A stretch of 34,500 bases of DNA from Patescibacteria group bacterium. GTDB taxonomy: Bacteria > Patescibacteriota > Minisyncoccia > Moranbacterales > DUUL01. Location of the stretch: contig WGDO01000048.1 in assembly GCA_015493225.1 (NCBI GenBank), positions 1 through 34,500 of the forward strand, given 5' to 3'. Below, piece by piece: positions 4,288 through 32,688 of the stretch. Made by a program: the position numbers and the translations under genes. How positions within the stretch are numbered: position 1 is the stretch's first letter; every line of letters begins with the position of its first letter. Under the pieces are notes generated by a model. That model was not told where the DNA came from. It saw only the letters and a program-made list of their open reading frames with translations, and searched no databases.

Positions 4288-4457
4288 AATTTTTAGTTTA
4301 ATTAACTTATTTTAAATTTAAAAAAATTTCCGTCAAATCCATGACCGAAATTTCTCCTTACATTTATAAGTATAGCCTATTTTTTAAATTTGTCAATGGC
4401 GCTATCGATTAAAAAATATACTCTTCTATTTTCATTTCATAATACATATGCATATTA

Positions 4458-4500
4458 AAAAAGGCATCAACGAAAAAATGTTAATTTCGCGATGCCTTTC
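4458..4500 (-). terminator. Intrinsic terminator downstream of the 4568-4936 gene
   Basis: AAAGGCATC...GATGCCTTT stem with inner CGAAA/TTTCG pairing; on the minus strand it is followed by TTTTTT. Confidence 0.7.
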
Positions 4501-4557
4501 CTGATATCTATATATCTATCTTTAATCAGTTTTACCGATTAAGGATATATATATCAG
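4501..4557. repeat. Long AT-rich inverted repeat (hairpin) just past the stop of the 126-aa gene
   Basis: CTGATATcTATATATC...TTTAATC loop GATTAA..GATATATATATCAG pairing. Confidence 0.6.
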
Positions 4558-15524: not shown

Positions 15525-15558
15525 AAGATACTATTTTTATTTTTTTATTTCTTCTTCT

Positions 15559-15587
15559 ATTATATAGTATGTGCAATTACTTGACAA
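15559..15587 (-). promoter_or_regulatory. Sigma70-type promoter of the 13614-15524 gene
   Basis: Minus strand TTGTCA-N17-TATAAT, about 27 nt from predicted TSS to ATG. Confidence 0.7.
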
Positions 15588-15608
15588 ATTTTTAAAACTT
15601 GTTATAAT
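15581..15608 (+). promoter_or_regulatory. Consensus sigma70-type promoter reading into the 15.6-16.4 kb noncoding region
   Basis: TTGACA (15581-15586), 16-nt spacer, TATAAT (15603-15608); overlapped by 9-bp inverted repeat AACTTGTTA/TAACAAGTT (15596-15621). Confidence 0.8.
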
Positions 15609-15614
15609 GTTTTA

Positions 15615-16376
15615 ACAAGTTAATTTATTAATTTGTTTTGAAAAAGTTCTTTTAAATATTTGTGAGTATACACAGCTTTAGGAAAAAATTATTCGAGTTT
15701 TCTTGAAATGTTTTTGATTAATACAGCAAATAGTAGTTAAATTTATTTAAAAATTTGAATATTATTTGCTGTATTAACGGAGGCTCTTTATTCTTGTCGG
15801 ATTGAAGTGTCTCTACCTAAAAACTCCATAATAAGGAGAGCGCCATGATTTGCTTTCGTCGTCCCCCGCCCATAGTGGGCACTGAGATCTCTTTTAAATT
15901 ATTTATTTCCCCTGTTGCCTGCGTCACCGCCACCTGATCGGACCGGCCCGTCGCACTTTCAGCCAGAATTTTTTCTGTGGACATAATATTTAGTTTTGAC
16001 ACCGGTATTTCGTTACCGTCAAAAATAAATAGTATGGCTGAAGCAGAAATAATCTCTAGCTGGAAAGACAATCTGTTGAGCAAGCATAGCTCAATTTGGT
16101 TGTCCGCAGTAACTGGATTAAGAAAGGGAGGGGAGTTCCATGTGAGCTGTCCTTCTGTGCGCTTTCTTTTCCAGTTTGTTTTCCCTTGTTGGGAAAAATA
16201 TAAGCTCACTTAGGTCATTTCGTCCCTGAAAACAGGAATGTAGAGTAGCGGAATGGCTGAAAGAACAAACTCTACATGTGAACCAGTGCTCTTTGACTGA
16301 AAAATATCATAAGAGCATTGGTCACGCCATTATCTATAAAGGCTGCCAGGCACAATACCTTGGTAGCCTTTTTTCT
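15615..16376 (+). ncRNA. Candidate large structured noncoding RNA, class not recognised
   Basis: Promoter upstream, strong terminator at the end, no credible ORF, and at least eight internal hairpins (15718-15777, 15868-15880, 16003-16018, 16076-16094, 16142-16209 with inner 16179-16197, 16238-16277, 16282-16322). Confidence 0.65.
16338..16376 (+). terminator. Intrinsic terminator of the candidate ncRNA
   Basis: AAAGGCTGCCAGG cacaata CCTTGGTAGCC followed by TTTTTTCTTTTT. Confidence 0.85.
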
Positions 16377-16508
16377 TTTTTAAAAATAAACTTTATTGAT
16401 AAATTATCCGGGAGTGAAAGAGTGGAAATTTTATTGATTAAAAATTGATTAAAACCACCATTCATATTATAATTGAAATGTAATCAACTCATTTTAAAAT
16501 ATTACTAA

Positions 16509-16534
16509 ATGTATGTATAAATTTATACATACAT
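16509..16534. promoter_or_regulatory. 26-bp perfect palindrome upstream of the GT39 gene (candidate operator)
   Basis: ATGTATGTATAAATTTATACATACAT, no spacer, 22 bp before the ATG at 16556. Confidence 0.5.
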
Positions 16535-16555
16535 CTACTTAATAAACTTATTTTT

Positions 16556-18862
16556 ATGAAACAAAAATCCTTTTTTGATCCTCAGCTTATAAAAAAATAT
16601 TTATTTTCGATAACTCTTTTTGTGGGAGCATTTGGGGTGGCAATTTATAAAGTTCCTTCTTTATTTTTTCTACGAATCTCTTTTCTCCCTTTAAAATTAT
16701 ATTATTTATTATTTTTTGGTTCTCTGTTGTTTTTGGGAGTTCAAATTGCTAAGTCCCAAAAATCAACCATTCAAAAAATATCTTTTTTTCTCTGGGCGAC
16801 CCTTCCCTCGGAAATTGTTTTAATTTTAATAGCCTGGAAGACTCAAGCATTTCAATCACACTCTATTCATTGGGTATTCTTATTATTAGTTAATTTATGG
16901 CCAGTATTATTAACGGGTTATCTTATTTATTACTATTCTTTACAATTCAATTCCCAAAAGAAAAAATCAGTATCTTCAAAAAAAACAGTCTCTTCTTCAA
17001 ATTTATCTTTGACAACCGTTATTCTTCTTGGTCTTATTTTGTTAATACATTTTTCTTTTGGATTTTATCATCTTGGGAAAGAAGCCTATGTTGACGAACG
17101 TCTTTGGACCTATAGCAATTCTCATCGAATTGAAAAATATTGGAATAATATTTTAGAAGGTGACTGGAAAAACACCAGGCCGAGTGATAAACCAGGAATA
17201 AGTTTGGCTTTTTTATCTGGCCCTTCTCTACTTTTTGTTACTCCCTCTAATTTTAAAGATGATATTCCAGATAAAGAAGCTTTTACTAGAATGTTCTTTG
17301 CAATGAGATTGCCAATTCTAATTTTCAGCACTCTTATTTTATTATTATTTTATCATCTCCTGAGTAATTTATTTAACAGTAAAATAGGACTTCTAGCCAC
17401 AGCCTTTATCGGATTATCACCAATTCTACTTGGTGTTAGTCGTTTAATTAATCCTGATTCTCTAAGTTGGTCGATTATTCCTTTAACGATTCTCTCATTT
17501 TTTAATTACCAAAAAACAAAAAAACTTCGCTGGCTTTATTTAACTGGCATTTTACTTGGCTGGGGATTATTAACTAAATACATCGCCAATCTTCTTTTTT
17601 TATTTTTCTTACTTTTAATATTTACTGAAAATATTTTACCTATTAAAATCACCAAGGCAGAAGTTAAGAAAAATATTCGTGAATCTCTAAAATCCCTGGG
17701 AATTATTTCCCTAATTGCTTTGTTGACATTTTATATTTTTTATCCTGGTGTCTGGGTCAAACCAGACCGCTTGCTCATTGGCACAATTTGGAGTCAACCT
17801 TTTGAGCCTATTTGGAAATATTTTGTGGGACTTGTCGCCGTAATAATCATTGATTATATTTTCAATAAATCCGGTCTAACTACTTGGGTTAATTGGCAAC
17901 TACGCAAATTACGAATATTTACATCTCTTGTTCCTTGGATATTTTTAATTACCATAATAATCACTTTGTACAATGTATATTTTGCTGGACATCCTATTAA
18001 TTTTGAAGCTATGCTTACTTCCCCAAAAACTGCCATTGATGACGGTACTTTTATTTTGAATTTTCAAGCCTTTGTCGTTAGTTTTTATGTTTTACTTTTC
18101 GGTATTTCTCCCCTAGCTTTTCTTGGTGTAATATTTGCTGTTTTTGCTGAATTGTCAAAAAAAAGCAAACAAAAATTATCTGCTTATCCTTATATTTGGT
18201 ATTTATTTCTATTTATAATTGTTTTTTATCTGGCTTCTATTTTTAGTACCACCATAGCCATCGTTCGTTATCAAATAATTATTTATCCTTTAATTTTTGT
18301 AATCGCTTCCTATGGTTGGTCTTCTATATTAAAATCCGTCTTCAAAAAAGATTCTTCAAAACTTTTTTATTGGTTGCTAGGAATTGTAATTTTAATTTCT
18401 TCATTTACTCTCTATTCCATCCGACCATATTATTTCAGTTACAATAGTCCTCTTTTGCCTCAAAAATATTTGATAAATATTAAAGATATGGGCGATGGCA
18501 ATTACGAAGCAACTCAATATTTAAATAATCTCCCCAATGCTAAAAACCTCAAAGTCTGGACGGACAAAAGAGGAGTTTGTCAGTTTTTCATTGGGCAAGA
18601 TTGTTCCAGTGGAATAGGCGAGAAAAGTTTTTTAAAGCATGGGCCTCGCTATGATTATTTTGTCATCTCCAAGGGAAGAGAAAAACGAAGTATGAAAATT
18701 TCTGAAATCTACGCTTCTGGAAAACCAAATTATCCAATTCATATGCGAGAACTTTACGAAAGCTCTAATGACAAAGCAGATTTTATAATACACCCTGGCA
18801 ATCGCCAAGCAAATTACATCAAAATCATCCCGGAAAAAAATGTTCATGTTTGGAGAAAATAG
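16556..18862 (+). CDS. GT39/ArnT-like membrane glycosyltransferase
   Basis: Many TM helices; YVDERLW and DKPGISLAFLSG near the N-terminus, and the shared C-terminal motif LNNLPNAKNLKVWTDKRGVCQFFIG. Confidence 0.75.
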   Translation: MKQKSFFDPQLIKKYLFSITLFVGAFGVAIYKVPSLFFLRISFLPLKLYYLLFFGSLLFLGVQIAKSQKSTIQKISFFLWATLPSEIVLILIAWKTQAFQSHSIHWVFLLLVNLWPVLLTGYLIYYYSLQFNSQKKKSVSSKKTVSSSNLSLTTVILLGLILLIHFSFGFYHLGKEAYVDERLWTYSNSHRIEKYWNNILEGDWKNTRPSDKPGISLAFLSGPSLLFVTPSNFKDDIPDKEAFTRMFFAMRLPILIFSTLILLLFYHLLSNLFNSKIGLLATAFIGLSPILLGVSRLINPDSLSWSIIPLTILSFFNYQKTKKLRWLYLTGILLGWGLLTKYIANLLFLFFLLLIFTENILPIKITKAEVKKNIRESLKSLGIISLIALLTFYIFYPGVWVKPDRLLIGTIWSQPFEPIWKYFVGLVAVIIIDYIFNKSGLTTWVNWQLRKLRIFTSLVPWIFLITIIITLYNVYFAGHPINFEAMLTSPKTAIDDGTFILNFQAFVVSFYVLLFGISPLAFLGVIFAVFAELSKKSKQKLSAYPYIWYLFLFIIVFYLASIFSTTIAIVRYQIIIYPLIFVIASYGWSSILKSVFKKDSSKLFYWLLGIVILISSFTLYSIRPYYFSYNSPLLPQKYLINIKDMGDGNYEATQYLNNLPNAKNLKVWTDKRGVCQFFIGQDCSSGIGEKSFLKHGPRYDYFVISKGREKRSMKISEIYASGKPNYPIHMRELYESSNDKADFIIHPGNRQANYIKIIPEKNVHVWRK

Positions 18863-18864
18863 TT

Positions 18865-19929
18865 TTACTCACCTTCTACATTTTTGAATCCATTCTGACC
18901 AACGGACTGAGAAGCATTTTTATATTTTAAATCTTTTCCGTCTTGACAATTGTATTTATCTGGACTGACTACTATTTTCTTCCAGCCCTTAATTCTCTCT
19001 CCTCTTCTTTTTTTATTTTTTTTGGTTTTCTTTTTAAAAACTCGATACTCCATTGCGACATTAATATCATCAGGGGTAATTGTGACATAATAGAAATTTC
19101 CACCCTCTTTAAACCTGTATTCTGGTTTTAAAAATCTATTTTCTTTCCAGGCACCATTTAATACAAAATATTTAGTTGGTCCGTCTTGCATGGAGCATAA
19201 AGTTTCAATGTGTCCGGAAAATACGGCTCTGACTTTATACTCACTAAATAATTTATGTAATTTTTCGCCCTGGGGAAAAACTACCCAATTGGTAAATAAA
19301 TCTGTATTAACGGGGGGTTGATGCATAAACACAATTGTGTCCTTATTTTTATTTACAGCATCTTTTAAAGTATTTTCTAACCATTGCCACTCTTCGTCGT
19401 TAATACGTCCAGGGTAAGAACTCTTACCAGGCTCGGCATCTGTTTGATCTTCTAGAAAATTTGCATCCACAATTACTAGTCGATAATTTTTAATGTCTTT
19501 ATAATAATAGGTTTTTTTATAACCAGTTAAATCTAGCCAATCTTTTTTGGTGAATTTTCTCACCTCATGATTTCCCAAAACATGATAGAATGGCATTTTT
19601 AATTTTGCAAATTGCTTATTCATTATACGCCAATCTTTTATTGAATTTTTATCTTTACCATCCGTAAAATCTCCCAGCTCCAAAGTAACATCTGGTTTAA
19701 ACTTTTTATTCATTCTATTGATAAATCTACTGATAGCTCCTTGACTTTTCCAGTTAATTTCCCATTTTCCATCTATCTCTTTCCCATATCCAGCCACATC
19801 TGTTATTAAACCAATCTTCAGAAAATTATCTGTCTGCCTATGTCCCAAAAAATTTCCGTAATTTAAATAAACCACAGCCCCAATACTAACTAGCAATATT
19901 ATTAACAAACTTTTAGATACTTTATCCAT
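18865..19929 (-). CDS. Membrane-anchored calcineurin-like metallophosphoesterase
   Basis: LITDVAGYG, LELGDFTDG, YHVLGNHEVR, FMHQPP, VFSGHIE metallophosphatase motifs; N-terminal TM anchor. Confidence 0.85.
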   Translation of the reverse strand: MDKVSKSLLIILLVSIGAVVYLNYGNFLGHRQTDNFLKIGLITDVAGYGKEIDGKWEINWKSQGAISRFINRMNKKFKPDVTLELGDFTDGKDKNSIKDWRIMNKQFAKLKMPFYHVLGNHEVRKFTKKDWLDLTGYKKTYYYKDIKNYRLVIVDANFLEDQTDAEPGKSSYPGRINDEEWQWLENTLKDAVNKNKDTIVFMHQPPVNTDLFTNWVVFPQGEKLHKLFSEYKVRAVFSGHIETLCSMQDGPTKYFVLNGAWKENRFLKPEYRFKEGGNFYYVTITPDDINVAMEYRVFKKKTKKNKKRRGERIKGWKKIVVSPDKYNCQDGKDLKYKNASQSVGQNGFKNVEGE

Positions 19930-20076
19930 AAATTTTAATTTAAAATTTAAATCTCCCTAGATGGGATTGTTTCTAGGTAAAATTACAATAGCACTAAAAA
20001 GAATAAAAAACAAGTTCGTTGAATAAAAATATTAAATATGTTAATATTAAAATACATTTAATGATAATTATATTTT

Positions 20077-22014
20077 ATGCGTCAAAAACAATTTACTTCT
20101 AAGCTACGCTTTGTAGCTGTTTTACTTTTTGCCATATCGTCTTTTATTTCAATTGGACTTTACCATCTTGGCCAATTTGAAACCAGTGATGAACATCTTT
20201 GGAAAAATATGCGTATTCCTCTTTATTGGGAAGGAATTTCCCAGGGATTAAAAACTGGAAATTGGGAAAAAACTTATATCAATGACAAACCGGGGGTTTC
20301 CCTAGCTTTGATCTCTGGTATTGGACTACCGTTTGTTCCGGATCCCACTCAACAACGACTATTGGGTACAGAAAAAAAATATGGTGGTCTTTTTAAAATT
20401 TATGATGTTTCCCAAACGGAACATTTAAATTTTGCTCTTCGCCTTCCCCTACTGCTTTTCAATGGACTGGTTATGCTTCCCTTGTTATTTTTCTTGGTTT
20501 ATCGAGCCACTGATAATAAAAAAATAGCTGACTTTTTTATTTTATTTATTGGACTAAATCCTATTTTAATTGGTATTAGTCAAATTATGAATCCCGATGC
20601 TTTACTTTGGAGTTTTGGAGCTGGCGGAGTTTTTAGTTTTATGGCTTTACTAAAAACAAAAGAAAGAAAGTTTATTTGGCTAACTGGATTGCTAACTGGT
20701 TTTGCTCTGCTGAGTAAATATACCGCTAATCTATTATTTTTATTTTATGGACTAATGGCTTTTATTTATTGGCTTTATACTCCCAAAATAAATCGTCAAT
20801 ATTGGAAAAATTTTTTAAGAAATTATTTTTTTATTATCTTAATCTCCTGGACTGTTTTTGCTTTGTTTGTACCGGCGGTTATTCAAACACCCGATTTTTT
20901 CTCCTGGAAAAAACCTAAGCATTTTGCCTATGGGACTTATTTATCACCAGCTCTTAAGCCAATCATCAAACCATTAATTTTAGCATTATTTGTTTTAATA
21001 CTAGATAGTTTTATTTTAAAAAACTCTCTACTATTATTTTTGCGAAAACAATTCCGTCGATATCGCTTCTGGCTACTTCGCCTAACGGCACTGATTTTAT
21101 TGAGCTTGTTTTTGTTTGTAATATTTAATGCTCTTTCCGGAGCTAAACAAATTCCCCTGGATGACCTAAAGGAGAAAATTGGCAGTACTAAAAAATTGCA
21201 CTTCTATTTTACCCAGGGAAACCCGTTGTTGATTTCCTATGCTAAACAAATTTCCGTGGAGTCATTTAATTTTATTTTTTCTCTACCGGCTTTAAATATT
21301 TTCCTTTTGTTTTTTCTTTGGATTTTTGCATTGGTAAAACCAAAAAAACTACCTTACTCTAGTGAAATAATTTTCTTTTCTCTGGTGCCTTTTATTTTCT
21401 TTGGCGGTGGATTGTTGGCTAAAGTATTTGTTAATGTTCGCTATTCAATTTTACTCTACCCTTTCTTTTCTCTTCTCTCCGCCATTGCTCTGTATCTTTT
21501 AATTAAACAATTATCCTTAAAAAAAATAGCCTCAAAAAAAATATTAACTGTTGGAGCGGTGTTGATTATCATAGTTTACCAATCAATTATCCTTTTTTCC
21601 ATTAAACCTTTCTTCTTTAATTTTCAAAATGTTTTCCTTCCGAAAAAATATGTTTTGACTGATTCCTGGAGTTATGGAATATATGAAGCAGCGGCAAAAT
21701 TAAATTCTCTGCCGAATGCCAAGGAATTACAGGTTTGGTCTGACCGTGGATCTTTTTGCCGTTATTTTATTGGACACTGTATTAAAAATCGTCGCATTGA
21801 CCGTTCTAAAATTAAGCCAGATTTTTTTGTTATCACCAGACGAAATGTAGCTCGGGGAAGATTTTTTGCCTGGAAAAAAGTTACCGAACAACTTGCTAAT
21901 CATCCAGCGAGCTATTATTATCAAGGAGCTGTTTTCCAAAAACCATGGTGGGAAATAAAAATAGATAACCGCCCTAAAAATTATATAAAAATAATTAAAG
22001 CCGATGAAAAATAA
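20077..22014 (+). CDS. GT39/ArnT-like membrane glycosyltransferase (paralog)
   Basis: FETSDEHLW, NDKPGVSLALISGIG, multiple TMs, LNSLPNAKELQVWSDRGSFCRYFIGHC, RPKNYIKII. Confidence 0.75.
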   Translation: MRQKQFTSKLRFVAVLLFAISSFISIGLYHLGQFETSDEHLWKNMRIPLYWEGISQGLKTGNWEKTYINDKPGVSLALISGIGLPFVPDPTQQRLLGTEKKYGGLFKIYDVSQTEHLNFALRLPLLLFNGLVMLPLLFFLVYRATDNKKIADFFILFIGLNPILIGISQIMNPDALLWSFGAGGVFSFMALLKTKERKFIWLTGLLTGFALLSKYTANLLFLFYGLMAFIYWLYTPKINRQYWKNFLRNYFFIILISWTVFALFVPAVIQTPDFFSWKKPKHFAYGTYLSPALKPIIKPLILALFVLILDSFILKNSLLLFLRKQFRRYRFWLLRLTALILLSLFLFVIFNALSGAKQIPLDDLKEKIGSTKKLHFYFTQGNPLLISYAKQISVESFNFIFSLPALNIFLLFFLWIFALVKPKKLPYSSEIIFFSLVPFIFFGGGLLAKVFVNVRYSILLYPFFSLLSAIALYLLIKQLSLKKIASKKILTVGAVLIIIVYQSIILFSIKPFFFNFQNVFLPKKYVLTDSWSYGIYEAAAKLNSLPNAKELQVWSDRGSFCRYFIGHCIKNRRIDRSKIKPDFFVITRRNVARGRFFAWKKVTEQLANHPASYYYQGAVFQKPWWEIKIDNRPKNYIKIIKADEK

Positions 22015-23485
22015 AAAATTAAAAATAAATTTTGAAACAATTTTAATTATTAGTGCTTTATTAATTATTGGCTTGATATTATTTTTACCTAGAGTTGTTA
22101 TCCTAGTTAACCACTCTGATATTTTATCAATTTTCGCACAAAAAATACCAGAAACTGAAGTCACCTATACTTTACCAAATAATCAAACTGTAAAACCGCC
22201 GGATAGAATATGCAATATCAAAAAGTTTGGGGCCACAGCTGGAGACTCTACTAAGGCCAAAGAAAATAGATTGGCCATTCAATCAGCCATAGATTCCTGT
22301 GTCGATGAAAAACATTCTTTATTTATTCCGGCCGGCAATTGGTTTACCGGCAGTTTATATTTTAATAAAAACACTTGGTTGATTTTAAATAAAGAAGCTA
22401 CTCTTAATTTCGTTTACGACCCAGAATTATACAGACCCCTGCGCCCTTCTCGTTTTGAAGGTTATGAATTAATAAACTTTTCTGCCCCTCTTTATTTTGA
22501 CCATCTTAGCGGTGGTGGTATAATTGGGGGAGGAAAAATTAAAATTGTCAATCCAGAAAAATGGTATACCTGGGACAAAAAAGAGAAGCCGGCGAAAAAT
22601 AGACTTCTTCAATTCTCCCAAGAAAACGTTCCTCTAGAACAAAGAGTTTTCGATAAAGTAACGGATGGTTTACGTCCACCTTTTTTACAACTTTACAATG
22701 TAAAGAATTTTGTTCTGGATAATTTTATTGTTGAAAATTCAACATCCTGGACAATCCACGCCCTTTATAGTCAAAACCTACTTATCCAAAATTTAAATAT
22801 TTTTACCAATGGACCAAATACTGATGGTATTGTTCTTGATTCATCTACTAACGCCATTGTTAGAAATAATATCCTCAATACCGGTGATGATGCCATTGTT
22901 CTCAAGTCTGGTTCCGATGAAGATGGTCGACGAATTGCCAAACCAACTGAGAAAATTTTAATTGAAGATAATTTCATAAAAGATGCTCATGGAGCAGTGG
23001 TAATTGGCAGTGAAATGACTGGCGGTGTTCAGGATATAACTATCAAGAATATTAAAATTGAAAAAGCGGATATTGGTTTGCGTCTTAAAACTCGTCCTGG
23101 TCGGGGAGGCTTTATTCGTAATATAAATTTAGATCACTTGGAAGCTCAAAAATTAAGAGCGGAATTATTGAAAATTAATGCTCATTACAAGGAAGCTATT
23201 AAAAACAAGAACTCGTCGCCGAAACCATATCCGATCGTGGAAAATATTACTGTTAATAATTTAACTGCTGAAACAACTGAACGAGTCATTTTCATTGATG
23301 GCTTAAAAGAAAATCCTTTTAAAAATATTCACCTGAAAAACATAACCGCTCAACAAAGAAGATCTTCCCACATAAAGAATACGACTGACCCTGATCTACA
23401 AAATATTAATATAACTTTTATACCCAGAAAAGATATCAAAAAAGAAGGTAAAAATAAACTTAAAAAAGTACTTATATTTAATTAA
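22004..23485 (+). CDS. GH28 polygalacturonase-like right-handed beta-helix protein, N-terminal membrane anchor
   Basis: NTDGIVLDSS, NTGDDAIVLKSG, AHGAVVIGSE, RLKTRPGRGG correspond to the GH28 NTD, DD, HG and RxK catalytic motifs. Confidence 0.85.
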   Translation: MKNKKLKINFETILIISALLIIGLILFLPRVVILVNHSDILSIFAQKIPETEVTYTLPNNQTVKPPDRICNIKKFGATAGDSTKAKENRLAIQSAIDSCVDEKHSLFIPAGNWFTGSLYFNKNTWLILNKEATLNFVYDPELYRPLRPSRFEGYELINFSAPLYFDHLSGGGIIGGGKIKIVNPEKWYTWDKKEKPAKNRLLQFSQENVPLEQRVFDKVTDGLRPPFLQLYNVKNFVLDNFIVENSTSWTIHALYSQNLLIQNLNIFTNGPNTDGIVLDSSTNAIVRNNILNTGDDAIVLKSGSDEDGRRIAKPTEKILIEDNFIKDAHGAVVIGSEMTGGVQDITIKNIKIEKADIGLRLKTRPGRGGFIRNINLDHLEAQKLRAELLKINAHYKEAIKNKNSSPKPYPIVENITVNNLTAETTERVIFIDGLKENPFKNIHLKNITAQQRRSSHIKNTTDPDLQNINITFIPRKDIKKEGKNKLKKVLIFN

Positions 23486-25450
23486 ATGAAAAAATTCTTA
23501 AAAACATATTTTCCACTATTAATTGCCGTAATTATATTTATTGGTTTTGGCTTTTTTCATTTGACCAAATTTGAGACCACCGATGAACATTTTTGGAAAT
23601 ATGACCGAATTGATAAATATTTTAATGGCTGGCGAGAACACGATTGGAAAAAAACCAGAATTAATGATAAACCGGGAGTAACAGTGGCTCTCATTTCTGG
23701 GATTGGGCGAGTTTTTATTCCTCCTCTAAAAAGTCATGAGGATTTGTCAGCTAAAGAAAAAAACAGCTTTGTTCTTCCCAACGGACATCGAAAAAGTTTT
23801 TATAATTTTTTTCATACTGACTGGACAGAAAAAATTAACTTGGCCCTCAGATTACCTCTGCTATTATTTAATGGCCTTTTAATGTTACCCTTGATGTTTT
23901 TCACTCTTCGACGAGCCTTCGGTAAACAAATTGCTGACTGGGGAATTATTTTAATTGGTAGCAATCCAATCTTGATTGGTATTTCCCAGATTATAAATCC
24001 CGACGCCCTGCTTTGGAGTTTTAGTACTGTAGCTCTTTTTTCTTTTATCGCTCTATTAAAAACCAATGAGCGAAAATTTATTTTTTTAACCGGACTAATG
24101 ACTGGTCTAGCCCTGCTGTCAAAATACACTGCTAACTTATTATTCGTTTTTTATGCTTTGGTTTATATTTTGTATACCTTGAATGCATCACTAAAATACA
24201 AATCATCGCTAAAAGAAATGTTATTAGACTATGGTCGTAGAATGCTTATAATTATTGCAACTGCCTGGGGAATTGTAATTTCATTGATGCCAGCTGTACT
24301 TATAATTCCTAGACACTTTTTATACGCCACAATTTACTCTCCCGTTTTTCAATCTCCAATAAAAATTCTAACCACTCTTCTCCATCTGAATAATCTTTTT
24401 TATCTAGGCAATGGACATTACCGAACTATCCCCCTTGGACTATTTTCCCTTGTTATTTTTCTAAGTTTATTTGTGATTTTACCACCAATTGTTTTAGTAA
24501 TATTTAAAAAATATCCAAAAATTGTTAAATTAATTGGCAATTTTTTTATTATTTTCTTATTATTGATATTCACTCTGTCATTTATCAATGCCTGGTTCAA
24601 TACACCACTTTTTTCTTTAGATAATTTAAAAGAGAATTCTCTTTCCAGTGATGTTTTGAAATTTAAACAATTGCGAGGTCAACCTTTTTTATTGTTTTGG
24701 ACCAATGCTTTATTGATTCAAGCCCAAAATTTTATATTTTCCCTTAGGGATTGGTTAATGCCAATTTTACTGGGTGGTTTTTTAATAACCCTGAAAAATT
24801 CAAAATCAAAAAAACTAAATTGGTTTATATATTTTTCAGCAATTATTCCTTTTGTATTTTTTATTGGGGGATTATTTGCTAATATATTCGTAAATATTCG
24901 CTACAGTTTAATGCTTTATCCTATTTTTATGGTTATCGGGGCAATAGCATTAGTGGAAATAAATAAAAAAATCACTTCTCGATTTTATCAAAAAGTTTTA
25001 TTTTTTATGATTTTATTATTTAGTTTCATATCTCTATGGCAAACTAAACCATTTTATTTTAACTACACCAACAATCTTTTGCCCCATAAATATGTGGTAA
25101 CCGATGCCTGGGGTTATGGTCTTTACGAAGCTGCTCAGTATTTAAACAGCTTGCCAAATGCTCAAAATGTCACAGCTTGGTCTGACCAGGAGGGTTTATG
25201 CCAATTCTTTGTTGGTAAATGTATCAGGGGACATAAAATTTATACTTATTACGTTAAACCCGATTATATTTTAATTACTCGTCGAGGATATATAACTAAA
25301 AGACCGGTGGTACGCAGTATTAATAGACAAAGAACCACTCTTGATTTAAGTAAACCCTATAGCCAAACTAGTCTCTCCAGCCCAGTTTGGCAATTAAACA
25401 TTGGGGGGCGTCCGAAAAATTTTGTAAAAATCATAAAAGTGATACCCTAA
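23486..25450 (+). CDS. GT39/ArnT-like membrane glycosyltransferase (paralog)
   Basis: FETTDEHFW, NDKPGVTVALISGIG, LNSLPNAQNVTAWSDQEGLCQFFVGKC, RPKNFVKII; begins right after the stop of the GH28 gene. Confidence 0.75.
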   Translation: MKKFLKTYFPLLIAVIIFIGFGFFHLTKFETTDEHFWKYDRIDKYFNGWREHDWKKTRINDKPGVTVALISGIGRVFIPPLKSHEDLSAKEKNSFVLPNGHRKSFYNFFHTDWTEKINLALRLPLLLFNGLLMLPLMFFTLRRAFGKQIADWGIILIGSNPILIGISQIINPDALLWSFSTVALFSFIALLKTNERKFIFLTGLMTGLALLSKYTANLLFVFYALVYILYTLNASLKYKSSLKEMLLDYGRRMLIIIATAWGIVISLMPAVLIIPRHFLYATIYSPVFQSPIKILTTLLHLNNLFYLGNGHYRTIPLGLFSLVIFLSLFVILPPIVLVIFKKYPKIVKLIGNFFIIFLLLIFTLSFINAWFNTPLFSLDNLKENSLSSDVLKFKQLRGQPFLLFWTNALLIQAQNFIFSLRDWLMPILLGGFLITLKNSKSKKLNWFIYFSAIIPFVFFIGGLFANIFVNIRYSLMLYPIFMVIGAIALVEINKKITSRFYQKVLFFMILLFSFISLWQTKPFYFNYTNNLLPHKYVVTDAWGYGLYEAAQYLNSLPNAQNVTAWSDQEGLCQFFVGKCIRGHKIYTYYVKPDYILITRRGYITKRPVVRSINRQRTTLDLSKPYSQTSLSSPVWQLNIGGRPKNFVKIIKVIP

Positions 25451-25471
25451 TTAAATTAATAAATTCTAAGT

Positions 25472-26902
25472 ATGGAAAATAAAACAAATACAGCAGATGT
25501 AATTATATTTGGAGCCGGTCCTTCTGGTTTGGCAGGTGCTCACGAGTTAGTAATTCACGACAAGAAAATAATTATATTTGAAAAAGATAAACAAGTTGGA
25601 GGAATTAGCAAAACAGTTAAATTCAAAGACTGTTATTTTGATTTGGGCGGACATCGCTTCTTTACTAAGTCCAAAAGAGTGAACAAACTTTGGAATAAAA
25701 CTCTGGGTGACAACTTCCTCAAAAGACCACGTCTATCTAGGATTTATTATCGTAATAAATTTTTCAATTACCCCATTAAACCCCTTAATGCTTTTAAAGG
25801 TCTTGGTCTAATTAATTCAATTCAGATTTTATTTAGCTATTTATTAATTAAATTATTCCCCTACAAAAAAGAAGATACTTTTGAAGAATGGACTTCAAAC
25901 AGGTTTGGTAAAAAATTATATAAAATATTTTTCAAAACCTACACAGAAAAACTTTGGGGAATACCCTGTACGGAAATTCAGGCCGAATGGGTTGCTCAGA
26001 GAATTAAAGGATTATCATTGCTTTCGGCAGTAAAAAATGCTCTTCTTCCTGATAAAAAATCAAAAATAAAAACTCTGATAAATGAATTTAAATACCCAAA
26101 ATACGGTCCAGGAATGATGTATAATAAAATGACTGAGGATATTAAACAAATGGGTGGAAAAATATATACAGAGACTGAAGTCTTAAAAATAAATCATACC
26201 AATTTTACCGTGGATAGCGTTACTGTTAAAAACAAAAATGCAGAAGCTATCGAGGAAGTTTTTTATGCGAAAAATTTCCTTTCCAGTATGCCAATCACGA
26301 CTCTAGTCAAACGCCTATCTCCTTCTGCTCCGGAAGAAGTTATACAGGCTGCCAATAATTTAACCTACCGAAGTTTTATTGCCATAAGCGTTATCTTGAA
26401 AGCACCTAACCCTTTTCCGGATACCTGGATTTACATACACTCTCCGGAGGTAAAAATGGGTCGGATTCAAAATTTTAAGAATTGGAGTCCTCACATGGTA
26501 ACCAATGATGAACAGGTTGCTCTTGGTTTAGAGTACTTTTGTACAGAGAATGACGAACTATGGAATATGAAAGACGAAGACCTTATAAAACTTGGTTTGG
26601 AAGAACTGGAAAAAATACATTTAGGAAAGAAAGAAACCTTTGTGGATGGATTTGTGGCTCGAGTACCGAAAGCTTATCCTGTTTACGATAGAACTTACAA
26701 TAAAAATTTAGAAGTTGTAAAAAATTATTTAGATAAATTTAAAAATTTACAACCCATCGGACGCTATGGAATGTTTAAATATAATAATATGGATCACTCT
26801 ATTCTTACCGGAATTTATGCTTCTGAAAATATTTTGGGAAAAGAACATAATATCTGGCAAGTAAATGCTGATCAAGAATATCATGAGCAAACAAAAAAAT
26901 AA
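25472..26902 (+). CDS. FAD-dependent amine-oxidase/UDP-galactopyranose mutase-like oxidoreductase
   Basis: VIIFGAGPSGLAGAHELV Rossmann motif, EKDKQVGGISKT, DLGGHRFFTKSK. Confidence 0.85.
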   Translation: MENKTNTADVIIFGAGPSGLAGAHELVIHDKKIIIFEKDKQVGGISKTVKFKDCYFDLGGHRFFTKSKRVNKLWNKTLGDNFLKRPRLSRIYYRNKFFNYPIKPLNAFKGLGLINSIQILFSYLLIKLFPYKKEDTFEEWTSNRFGKKLYKIFFKTYTEKLWGIPCTEIQAEWVAQRIKGLSLLSAVKNALLPDKKSKIKTLINEFKYPKYGPGMMYNKMTEDIKQMGGKIYTETEVLKINHTNFTVDSVTVKNKNAEAIEEVFYAKNFLSSMPITTLVKRLSPSAPEEVIQAANNLTYRSFIAISVILKAPNPFPDTWIYIHSPEVKMGRIQNFKNWSPHMVTNDEQVALGLEYFCTENDELWNMKDEDLIKLGLEELEKIHLGKKETFVDGFVARVPKAYPVYDRTYNKNLEVVKNYLDKFKNLQPIGRYGMFKYNNMDHSILTGIYASENILGKEHNIWQVNADQEYHEQTKK

Positions 26903-28343
26903 GACCTCAAAACAAAATTACTTTTCAGATAATAAATTATTCTCAATAGCAATAATTGTGATTTTTTTATTATCTTTTTTTCTAAGATTTTCTCTAGCTA
27001 GCATAAACAGGTATGCCAATGACCATCATTTCCAGGTTATCCAATTAATTCGAACTACCCATACTATTCCAGACCGTAATACTCCTTCTTGCAAACAATG
27101 TTACCATCCAAAATTTTATTATTTATCCACTGCCAAATTAATTGATCTTCTATCCCTAAACAAACCAATGGATTATGACTATCAGAGAACGCTTGCTCAA
27201 TATGTCAATGCTCTGGCTGGCTTAATAACCATTGGTTTTATTCTTTCTTTTTTGTTAAAAATAAACTTGCCAAAAAATATTATTTTAATTACCACGGCAC
27301 TCATTGCCCTTAATCCCAGATTTGTATCAATCAATATTCAAGTAACTAATGATTCTTTTGCAATTCTTTTTTCCACTCTGGCAATTTATTTTTTCTATTT
27401 CTTTTTAAAAAATAAAAAAAGACAATCTATTATCCTAACAACCATTTTTACTTCTCTGGCCTTACTGTCAAAATTCTCTGGAATAATTTTATTGATGGGA
27501 ATGGTTTTAATTTTAATAATAAAGTTATTGCTTTCTTTCAGAAAAAAACAATTGCTTCGTCTTTACGCAACGGCTTTAATTATTTTTTTAGTGGGAACAA
27601 TTTCATCGGCGATTTTACTTGGCCCCTACTACACCAATTACCAAACAGCCGGCGACCCCTTGGCAATTAATATACCAAAATCTCCTCCTCCTCATTTCAT
27701 AAAGAGGACTTATTTGGATAAAAAAAATGGGATGATATCCGTGGTTGATTCTTTCTTTAAATTTAGAATTATCAATTTAATTCAATACCCTTTTATGAGT
27801 AAGGCTAATCAGGTTAGGGCAAAAACTTTAGCCAAAACTTCTCTCTGGACTCAAATTTATGCTCGTTTTAATTTTATTCAATATGAATCCCATCCAATGT
27901 TTTGGAAAAACAAAAGCGACAATGCTAGAGTGATTGCCGAGGTGTCTTATTTAACAGCCCTTTTGCCCTTGGCTATATTTTTCTATGGATTTTTAGTAAA
28001 TGCCCAAAATTTATTTTTAGGACTAAAAAAATATGGCTTAAATTTTATTTTAACCAATTCTGAGTGGATTTTCTTTTTCTTCGCAATTTTATTTTTGGTA
28101 GCCATAATGAAATTTTCAGCTGACTATCGCACCGTAAGTTCCATGAAATCTATTTATATTCTGCCCGCCATACTAAGTTTTATAAAAATACTTGCTGATG
28201 GGCTCTTAGGTCTAAATAATAAATTAAAAAATCTAAAATATAAAAAAATATACTTTGGTATTATCTATTTTATATTTAGTGTGTTGATGATTTCTTATAT
28301 AGCTGATTCTATTTTGTTATTTACAACCCTAAAAAATCTTTAG
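26883..28343 (+). CDS. GT39/ArnT-like polytopic membrane glycosyltransferase
   Basis: About ten TM helices, DHHFQVIQLIRTT with HPKFYYLSTAKLIDLL; overlaps the previous gene by 20 bp (start trimmed to MSKQKNK). Confidence 0.65.
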   Translation: MSKQKNKTSKQNYFSDNKLFSIAIIVIFLLSFFLRFSLASINRYANDHHFQVIQLIRTTHTIPDRNTPSCKQCYHPKFYYLSTAKLIDLLSLNKPMDYDYQRTLAQYVNALAGLITIGFILSFLLKINLPKNIILITTALIALNPRFVSINIQVTNDSFAILFSTLAIYFFYFFLKNKKRQSIILTTIFTSLALLSKFSGIILLMGMVLILIIKLLLSFRKKQLLRLYATALIIFLVGTISSAILLGPYYTNYQTAGDPLAINIPKSPPPHFIKRTYLDKKNGMISVVDSFFKFRIINLIQYPFMSKANQVRAKTLAKTSLWTQIYARFNFIQYESHPMFWKNKSDNARVIAEVSYLTALLPLAIFFYGFLVNAQNLFLGLKKYGLNFILTNSEWIFFFFAILFLVAIMKFSADYRTVSSMKSIYILPAILSFIKILADGLLGLNNKLKNLKYKKIYFGIIYFIFSVLMISYIADSILLFTTLKNL

Positions 28344-28398
28344 TTCACCCCTGGCGCCTGTCCAGCGAAGCCTTCAGGCGAAGTGGGATAAAGGGGGT

Positions 28399-28430
28399 CA
28401 AATTTTTCGAAGAAAAATTTGGGGTTTTTT
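28399..28430 (+). terminator. Intrinsic terminator between the convergent GT39-like gene and recO
   Basis: CAAATTTTTC gaa GAAAAATTTG ggg TTTTTT. Confidence 0.75.
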
Positions 28431-28454
28431 GAATTGATAGTCCTGCATATTCCC

Positions 28455-29228
28455 TTAAAAAATCACCCTTCTTTCGACAATTTGCTCTAGAATTAATTTA
28501 GTAAATTGTTTTAGCTCTTGTAGGTCTTTGCTTTCTATTTTTAGTTTTTTGATTAGATTAATATCTTGGGTAACTAGAAATTTGATAATTTTAATAGTGT
28601 TCTTGTGCAAGTCTAATTTTAAATCAACACCAGTATGATTAGTACAGCCACAATTAATCCCCTGGGATAATACAAATTGATAAACTTCTTTTTCAGCTAC
28701 TTTTTTATTACAATAGGCACAGTTGGAAAACCTGGGAAAATAGCCTGTCCAGTAAATCACTTTCCAGAGTAAGGATAGTTGGGCCAACTGACTGATGAAA
28801 TCTTGTTGTTCTTTTTTTTCTATTTTATTATCTTCTTCTTTATCCTTGGCCAAGGTGTTTAATAATTTTAAATATTCTTTCATGGCCACAAATATTTTTT
28901 CATTGGCTTCTCCATCGGGCAAAAGTCGTTCCACAATATCGGTGGTACGACGCCCTTCTATTAAATAGTCTAGGTCCTGTTTTAGGGTTTTGTACTGTCT
29001 TAGAACAATGGCGCCAGTTACTCGATCTAAATAACGACATTTAACCAAGAAAATATCTGAGCGAGTAAAAGGCTCTAATCCAGAGGCTAACTTGGCAACT
29101 AATTTTCTAGTGCCAATTCCCACCACCCTTATTTTTCCATGCTCCCGCGAAAAAACAGAGTATATTCGGTCATACTCTTTGCTTTTCCAGTATTTTAGGA
29201 TGATTACTTCGGTGCGATAATCAGACAT
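28455..29228 (-). CDS. recO: DNA repair protein RecO
   Basis: YRTEVIILKYWKSKEYDRIYSVFSREHGKIRVVGIGTRK OB fold; zinc-finger-like CAYCNKK...CGC. Confidence 0.9.
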   Translation of the reverse strand: MSDYRTEVIILKYWKSKEYDRIYSVFSREHGKIRVVGIGTRKLVAKLASGLEPFTRSDIFLVKCRYLDRVTGAIVLRQYKTLKQDLDYLIEGRRTTDIVERLLPDGEANEKIFVAMKEYLKLLNTLAKDKEEDNKIEKKEQQDFISQLAQLSLLWKVIYWTGYFPRFSNCAYCNKKVAEKEVYQFVLSQGINCGCTNHTGVDLKLDLHKNTIKIIKFLVTQDINLIKKLKIESKDLQELKQFTKLILEQIVERRVIF

Positions 29229-32106: not shown

Positions 32107-32688
32107 ATGAAGGCACACGTTTTTAGACTTAAGCCAGGAGAAGATTTAAGAGATTCCATTCAGAATTACGTCCAGAAAAATAATATCAAAGCTGGGGTTA
32201 TTTTAACTTGTGTGGGGACTGTTTCCAAGCTCCGTTTTTGATGAATTTTTTCAAATTTTAGCCGAGACGCCGTTGAAAAAATCGCATGAATACGGCGTAT
32301 TGATAAGATTTTTTTGACAAGTCGCAGGCAAAATTTGGAAAAATTGGCAAAAATCGGGGTTTGGAAACAGTCCCGTATAAGAAGTTTAAAACAGGCAACT
32401 ATTAGAATGGCCAATGCGAGTGCCTTAGAAAAAGATAAACAAATTTTAAGTTTCAATAAAAAATTTGAAATTGTTTCACTGGTTGGTACTCTTTCTGATA
32501 AAAAATGCCACCTGCACATTTCCCTGTCTGATGGAAACGGCAAGGTTATTGGTGGCCATCTGAAAAAAGGTTGTACAATTTACACCACTGCTGAAATAGT
32601 AATCGGTGAATTACCAGGATTAGAATTGACTCGTGAAACAGATGAATCAACAGGCTTTGTAGAATTAGTTGTGAATAAATTAAACTAG
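32107..32688 (+). pseudogene. PPC/DUF296 domain protein gene split by a fold-back insertion
   Basis: 5' part MKAHVFRLKPGEDLRDSIQNYVQKNNIKAGVILTCVGT, 3' part SLKQATIRMANAS...LVGTLSDKKCHLHISLSDGNGKVIGGHLKKGCTIYTTAEIVIGE; same frame on both sides of the insertion. Confidence 0.8.
32215..32374. mobile_element. Fold-back/MITE-like element A (160 bp) inside the PPC gene
   Basis: About 48-nt inverted arms GGGACTGTTTCCAAGCTCCG... / ...GGGGTTTGGAAACAGTCCC plus inner ACGCCGT/ACGGCGT hairpin. Confidence 0.8.

Follow-up and report, generated by a model that had tools for sequence, protein, structure and literature searches.

An orphan candidate for a structured noncoding RNA gene at the edge of an accessory glycosylation island in a Patescibacteria genome

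The locus and its accessory island

The window analysed here, a stretch of 34,500 nucleotides of contig WGDO01000048.1 from a Patescibacteria group bacterium of the Moranbacterales, carries an accessory island at 15525-28454, between a conserved gene for a 636-aa protein and recO, which starts at 28455, some 12.9 kb from the 636-aa gene. The seven genes of the island encode four PMT-type glycosyltransferases, a GH28 protein, an FAD amine oxidase-like protein, and a metallophosphoesterase. At one end of the island, on the plus strand, lies a predicted noncoding transcript of about 760 nt (15615-16376), the subject of this analysis. The first island gene, which starts at 16556 on the same strand and encodes one of the PMT-type glycosyltransferases, is preceded by weak promoter-like sites at 16445-16500; just upstream of it (16509-16534) is a 26-bp perfect palindrome, ATGTATGTATAAATTTATACATACAT, a possible operator that has no second copy in the genome even when 3 mismatches are allowed.

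In a relative from the same family that could be read almost whole (G003; 928,959 bases), recO and trpS come directly after the 636-aa gene, and the island is absent from between this gene and recO. Six of the seven island genes have no counterpart in that genome at E 1e-5, while the metallophosphoesterase has one elsewhere there. Since G003 lacks the candidate along with these six genes, the candidate is part of, or came with, the accessory block. Direct repeats common to both ends of the island were not found beyond chance, and scanning the 636-aa protein against the genome contigs returned no match. Between the island and recO, a GC-rich stretch at 28345-28400, CACCCCTGGCGCCTGTCCAGCGAAGCCTTCAGGCGAAGTGGG, has the look of an interspersed repeat. 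Several relatives of the 16556 protein in other genomes are titled Candidatus Moraniibacteriota; one relative with 55% identity is on a 3.9-kb contig titled Flavobacteriia, which is possibly mis-binned, most of the others being titled Moraniibacteriota.

Transcription signals, coding potential and predicted structure

An earlier note on this DNA had proposed a structured RNA of about 760 nt with an exact TTGACA-N16-TATAAT promoter and its own terminator, and both signals are present. The promoter lies at 15581-15608 on the plus strand, scores 12/12 against the sigma-70 consensus, has a TG ahead of the -10 box, and would place the start of the RNA near 15615; as a sequence signal, it gives the candidate a promoter of its own. 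A divergent promoter-like site on the minus strand (15559-15587; 11/12) overlaps it and is placed to serve the 636-aa gene. The perfect site is the only one in the window, against 0.06 expected from shuffled sequence, and the whole 1.3-Mb genome holds 44 perfect TTGACA-N16-18-TATAAT sites, as compared with 2 for a reversed control pattern, which argues that perfect sites here are mostly real signals. A perfect site alone is no proof of a useful transcript, since another in this genome is directed antisense into a 418-aa gene. One promoter sequence, TTGACAAATG(T/C)TTTAAATAA..., is present in nearly identical form on contigs 4, 62, and 65 and twice on contig 82, which suggests a repeated element.

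At the other end, an intrinsic terminator of 13 pairs (hairpin 16338-16371) followed by a T-run extends to 16380, and it sits between the candidate and the next gene, which begins 185 nt further on. The rise in GC content that the earlier note had described is also real, at 0.433 over 15778-16345 versus 0.327 for the whole window; screens for structured RNAs between bacterial genes make use of such elevated GC against an AT-rich background (PMC11109978).

The region shows no sign of coding for protein, in agreement with the earlier note, which had seen no credible ORF. The two ORFs named in that note, a 130-aa ORF on the minus strand and a 78-aa ORF on the plus strand, score -0.127 and -0.133 per codon, next to a median of -0.13 for chance ORFs, whereas most recognised genes score above zero on the same scale. 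Neither ORF matched Pfam, and protein homologs of either, one of the results that would have counted against the earlier reading, did not appear: comparison of the ORFs in the region with phages and plasmids (tblastn) and with viral contigs gave no credible relative, the phage matches having E values of 0.3 and 1. Six-frame translations with stops masked as X yielded a single match, below threshold at E 0.044, so that no frame shows the protein-family similarity expected of a decayed gene or pseudogene, even with stops allowed. A possible 30-codon ORF does stand behind an AAGGAG motif at 15845-15937 on the plus strand. Given its poor codon score and the fact that Shine-Dalgarno-like motifs precede only 3 of the 26 genes in the window, this ORF may be a chance occurrence.

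On the transcribed strand, the region is predicted to fold better than expected by chance. For the full predicted transcript the folding energy is -246 kcal/mol, compared with -177 for shuffles (z -10.5), a value to which the AT-rich 5' hairpin and the terminator contribute in part; the core without these two elements (15779-16335) has a z of -5.6, versus -2.5 on the opposite strand, and 15780-16380 gives -5.65 versus -4.0. For comparison, RNase P RNA and tmRNA of the same genome score -7.4 and -6.5. Within the candidate, 15950-16112 alone reaches -5.6, and 200-nt pieces starting at 15601, 16001, and 16201 range from -4.6 to -5.75 on the plus strand, set against means of -0.4 (plus) and -0.7 (minus), with a standard deviation of 1.5, for pieces elsewhere in the window. 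The stretch at about 15750-15900 (pieces starting at 15751 and 15801) has z values of about 0 to +1 and by itself shows no structure beyond chance.

Folding as strong as that of the pieces in the candidate, or stronger, also occurs elsewhere in the window, at 32201 and 4401, in each case on both strands. The first is the strongest folding piece of the window (z about -10 on both strands) and corresponds to a long inverted repeat at 32215-32374, with 54-nt arms that are 78% complementary, at the start of a 124-aa ORF; the second, at 4369-4513, is intergenic and contains inverted repeats (z about -6 on both strands).

The helices of the candidate predicted with high pair probability (about 0.9 or above) comprise a long AT-rich hairpin near the 5' end (15716-15778), with 27-nt arms that are 89% complementary; a hairpin at 15779-15814 (mean pair probability 0.95); a central, long, imperfect hairpin at 15957-16065, in two parts; a hairpin at 16067-16104 (0.99); the hairpin ACCAGTGCTCTT/AAGAGCATTGGT at 16277-16326, extended to 19 pairs; and the terminator itself. 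A further hairpin, ATGTAGAGT/ACTCTACAT, at 16238-16277 carries a loop, TGGCTGAAAG, that is complementary to 15956-15965 at 10 of 10 positions. A long-range helix of 12 pairs between 15833-15844 and 16157-16169, which would involve the AAGGAG stretch, has a probability of 0.47. All of the complementary pairs listed by the earlier note are present, although its first stem is longer than it had given, and in a fold of the entire transcript two of its stems, GTGAGCT/AGCTCAC and ATGTAGAGT/ACTCTACAT, face competition from alternative pairings. The 60-bp palindrome within the 5' hairpin (15718-15777) was also considered as a MITE; the genome holds no second copy.

Known RNA classes and homologs

An Rfam scan of the window at gathering cut-offs identified no family, and relaxing the threshold to E values of up to 10 over the region, a check proposed with the original observation, returned chance-level matches alone, mostly to microRNA-like hairpins. 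ARAGORN found no tRNA or tmRNA, and covariance models for GOLLD, ROOL, OLE, HEARO, introns, SRP, and 6S gave no match over the region. Nor did the models for RNase P RNA and tmRNA match here. The genes for these two RNAs lie on contig 87 (121 bits) and contig 24 (140 bits), respectively; the candidate is therefore neither of them, in line with the earlier note, which could not find their motifs.

Searches for relatives of the candidate were likewise negative. BLASTN covered more than 750 genomes (partly overlapping samples of 387 from the class and 384 from the phylum, together with 10 of the family, its own genome included) and found no homolog, and the region is single-copy in its own genome. 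Single-sequence covariance models (R1 and R2), which are weak and were used with stricter filters, recovered only the locus itself from 126 genomes of the order. Among phages, plasmids, and viral contigs no match extended: the plasmid matches covered the AT-rich hairpin alone, and the viral ones were exact 17- to 19-mers.

The 384 phylum genomes contained three short matches at E below 1e-3, slightly above expectation. In G598 and G710 the same 30 bases of the candidate were matched, in the former inside a topoisomerase I-like gene and in the latter in an apparent coding region of SMC type that is read from the opposite strand; a match in G666 looks like coding DNA, and a weak DNA match in G210 adjoins an HNH-type gene (assigned by eye). 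Lying in or against coding regions, these short matches were judged to be chance similarities.

The same-family relative G003 served as a control for sensitivity. Its RNase P RNA and tmRNA are 71% and 70% identical to those of the genome studied here, and both were recovered by BLASTN (E 7e-35 and 3e-46, respectively) and by nhmmer (8e-42 and 5e-53), while the candidate returned nothing in that genome by BLASTN, nhmmer, or models R1 and R2. As the same method finds these two genes there, the absence of the candidate from G003 is real within the sensitivity that suffices to detect ordinary RNA genes. A new structured RNA class would call for several homologs with compensatory changes in the stems, the outcome that would have supported the earlier note; the searches recovered no homolog, with or without such changes, and there is neither conserved structure nor covariation to assess. 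They thus neither support nor refute the proposal that the candidate belongs to a new class of large ornate RNAs. Our literature search on noncoding RNA in Patescibacteria brought up no publication dealing with large RNAs in these bacteria.

A stand-alone RNA gene and its rivals

The signals at the locus, taken in their order, favour a stand-alone RNA gene whose product would be released at the terminator. We tentatively place this reading first, at somewhat under an even chance: the region would be a lineage-specific noncoding RNA gene at the edge of the island. A perfect promoter would seldom arise by chance, and such sites are strongly over-represented in this genome; the terminator stands at the right distance and on the right strand, and the excess of folding, more marked on the transcribed strand, is comparable with that of the genome's own RNase P RNA and tmRNA. 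Weighing against it, no search recovered a homolog and there is hence no sign of selection on the structure; moreover, equally strong folding is seen on both strands at two other sites of the window, and the part of the candidate around 15750-15900 is unstructured.

Were this reading correct, RNA polymerase with the housekeeping sigma factor would begin near 15615, and synthesis would end at the hairpin and T-run at 16338-16376, releasing an RNA of about 760 nt. The product would fold into a row of hairpins, perhaps with the long-range helix 15833-15844/16157-16169 closing a central domain. Its most likely mode of action would be in trans, either in regulation or bound to protein, and the gene would have been acquired or lost along with the adjacent glycosylation island. 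The earlier structured-RNA reading holds in the signals for its own transcription unit, the missing coding signal, structure beyond chance, and a fit to no known class; its further step, to a large ornate RNA whose class is unrecognised, may be correct but finds no homolog to build on.

The main non-functional rival, which we regard as rather unlikely, is that the region is a relic or a chance assembly, either foreign or decayed DNA at the island edge or a by-product of the divergent promoter of the 636-aa gene. In its favour, the region is an orphan in all searches, in spite of a sensitivity control that worked, and it sits at the edge of an accessory block; hairpins also cluster elsewhere in the genome, and a further perfect promoter, if not more than one, looks unproductive. 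However, the core has a folding z similar to those of RNase P RNA and tmRNA, the transcribed strand folds more strongly than its complement, promoter and terminator stand in the right order, and the six-frame translations give no support to a decayed protein gene.

The main functional rival is a long 5' leader of the 16556 gene, beginning at 15615, in which the hairpin at 16338-16371 would be an attenuator that is sometimes read through, perhaps under the control of the 15845 ORF, the AAGGAG of which could be hidden by pairing with 16157-16169. The next gene is on the same strand only 185 nt past the terminator, and the candidate shares with attenuator- or uORF-controlled leaders a promoter, a possible small ORF (with its AAGGAG, its ATG, and a helix able to cover the motif), and a terminator ahead of a same-strand gene. 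It differs from them in being far longer, 760 nt being unusual for a leader, and in not being conserved ahead of homologous genes: upstream of the relatives of the 16556 gene no sequence resembles the candidate, and the nearest of these relatives, with upstream gaps of about 180-390 nt, have no such leader. The 16556 gene also has weak promoter-like sites and the 26-bp palindrome of its own, most genes here do without Shine-Dalgarno motifs, and the codon score of the small ORF is poor. On this balance we consider a leader unlikely. A very divergent member of a known large class (GOLLD, ROOL, OLE, HEARO, an intron, RNase P RNA, tmRNA, SRP, or 6S) is highly improbable: its length and multi-hairpin layout resemble those of large bacterial RNAs, yet no model matched at gathering cut-offs or at relaxed E values, ARAGORN was negative, and RNase P RNA and tmRNA are encoded elsewhere in the genome.

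Returning to the stand-alone gene, the established classes GOLLD, ROOL, and OLE have covariation support. As a predicted RNA that is large, stand-alone, rich in hairpins, and devoid of coding function, the candidate is like these large ornate bacterial RNAs (PMC12286853); it is unlike them in having no Rfam match even at relaxed thresholds, no known family, no homologs, and no covariation support. Screens of GC-rich intergenic regions rank their candidates by the number of representatives and a consensus model (PMC11109978; PMC6429828); the present stretch resembles such candidates in being long, intergenic, and GC-richer, with a promoter, a terminator, and predicted structure, whereas with its single representative it would be left "unnamed" or ranked low there. 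A bolder proposal, which we think quite improbable, is that it belongs to a new class of large structured RNAs on accessory cell-surface glycosylation islands of one Patescibacteria lineage, possibly also translated into a 30-residue peptide, with the start region of its ORF gated by the long-range helix.

The locus is most fittingly classed as an orphan candidate for a structured-RNA gene. For a genome of about 1.3 Mb, maintaining an RNA of 760 nt would be a considerable cost, and if it proves to be transcribed and sister strains turn out to conserve it, a new RNA class would become available for study.
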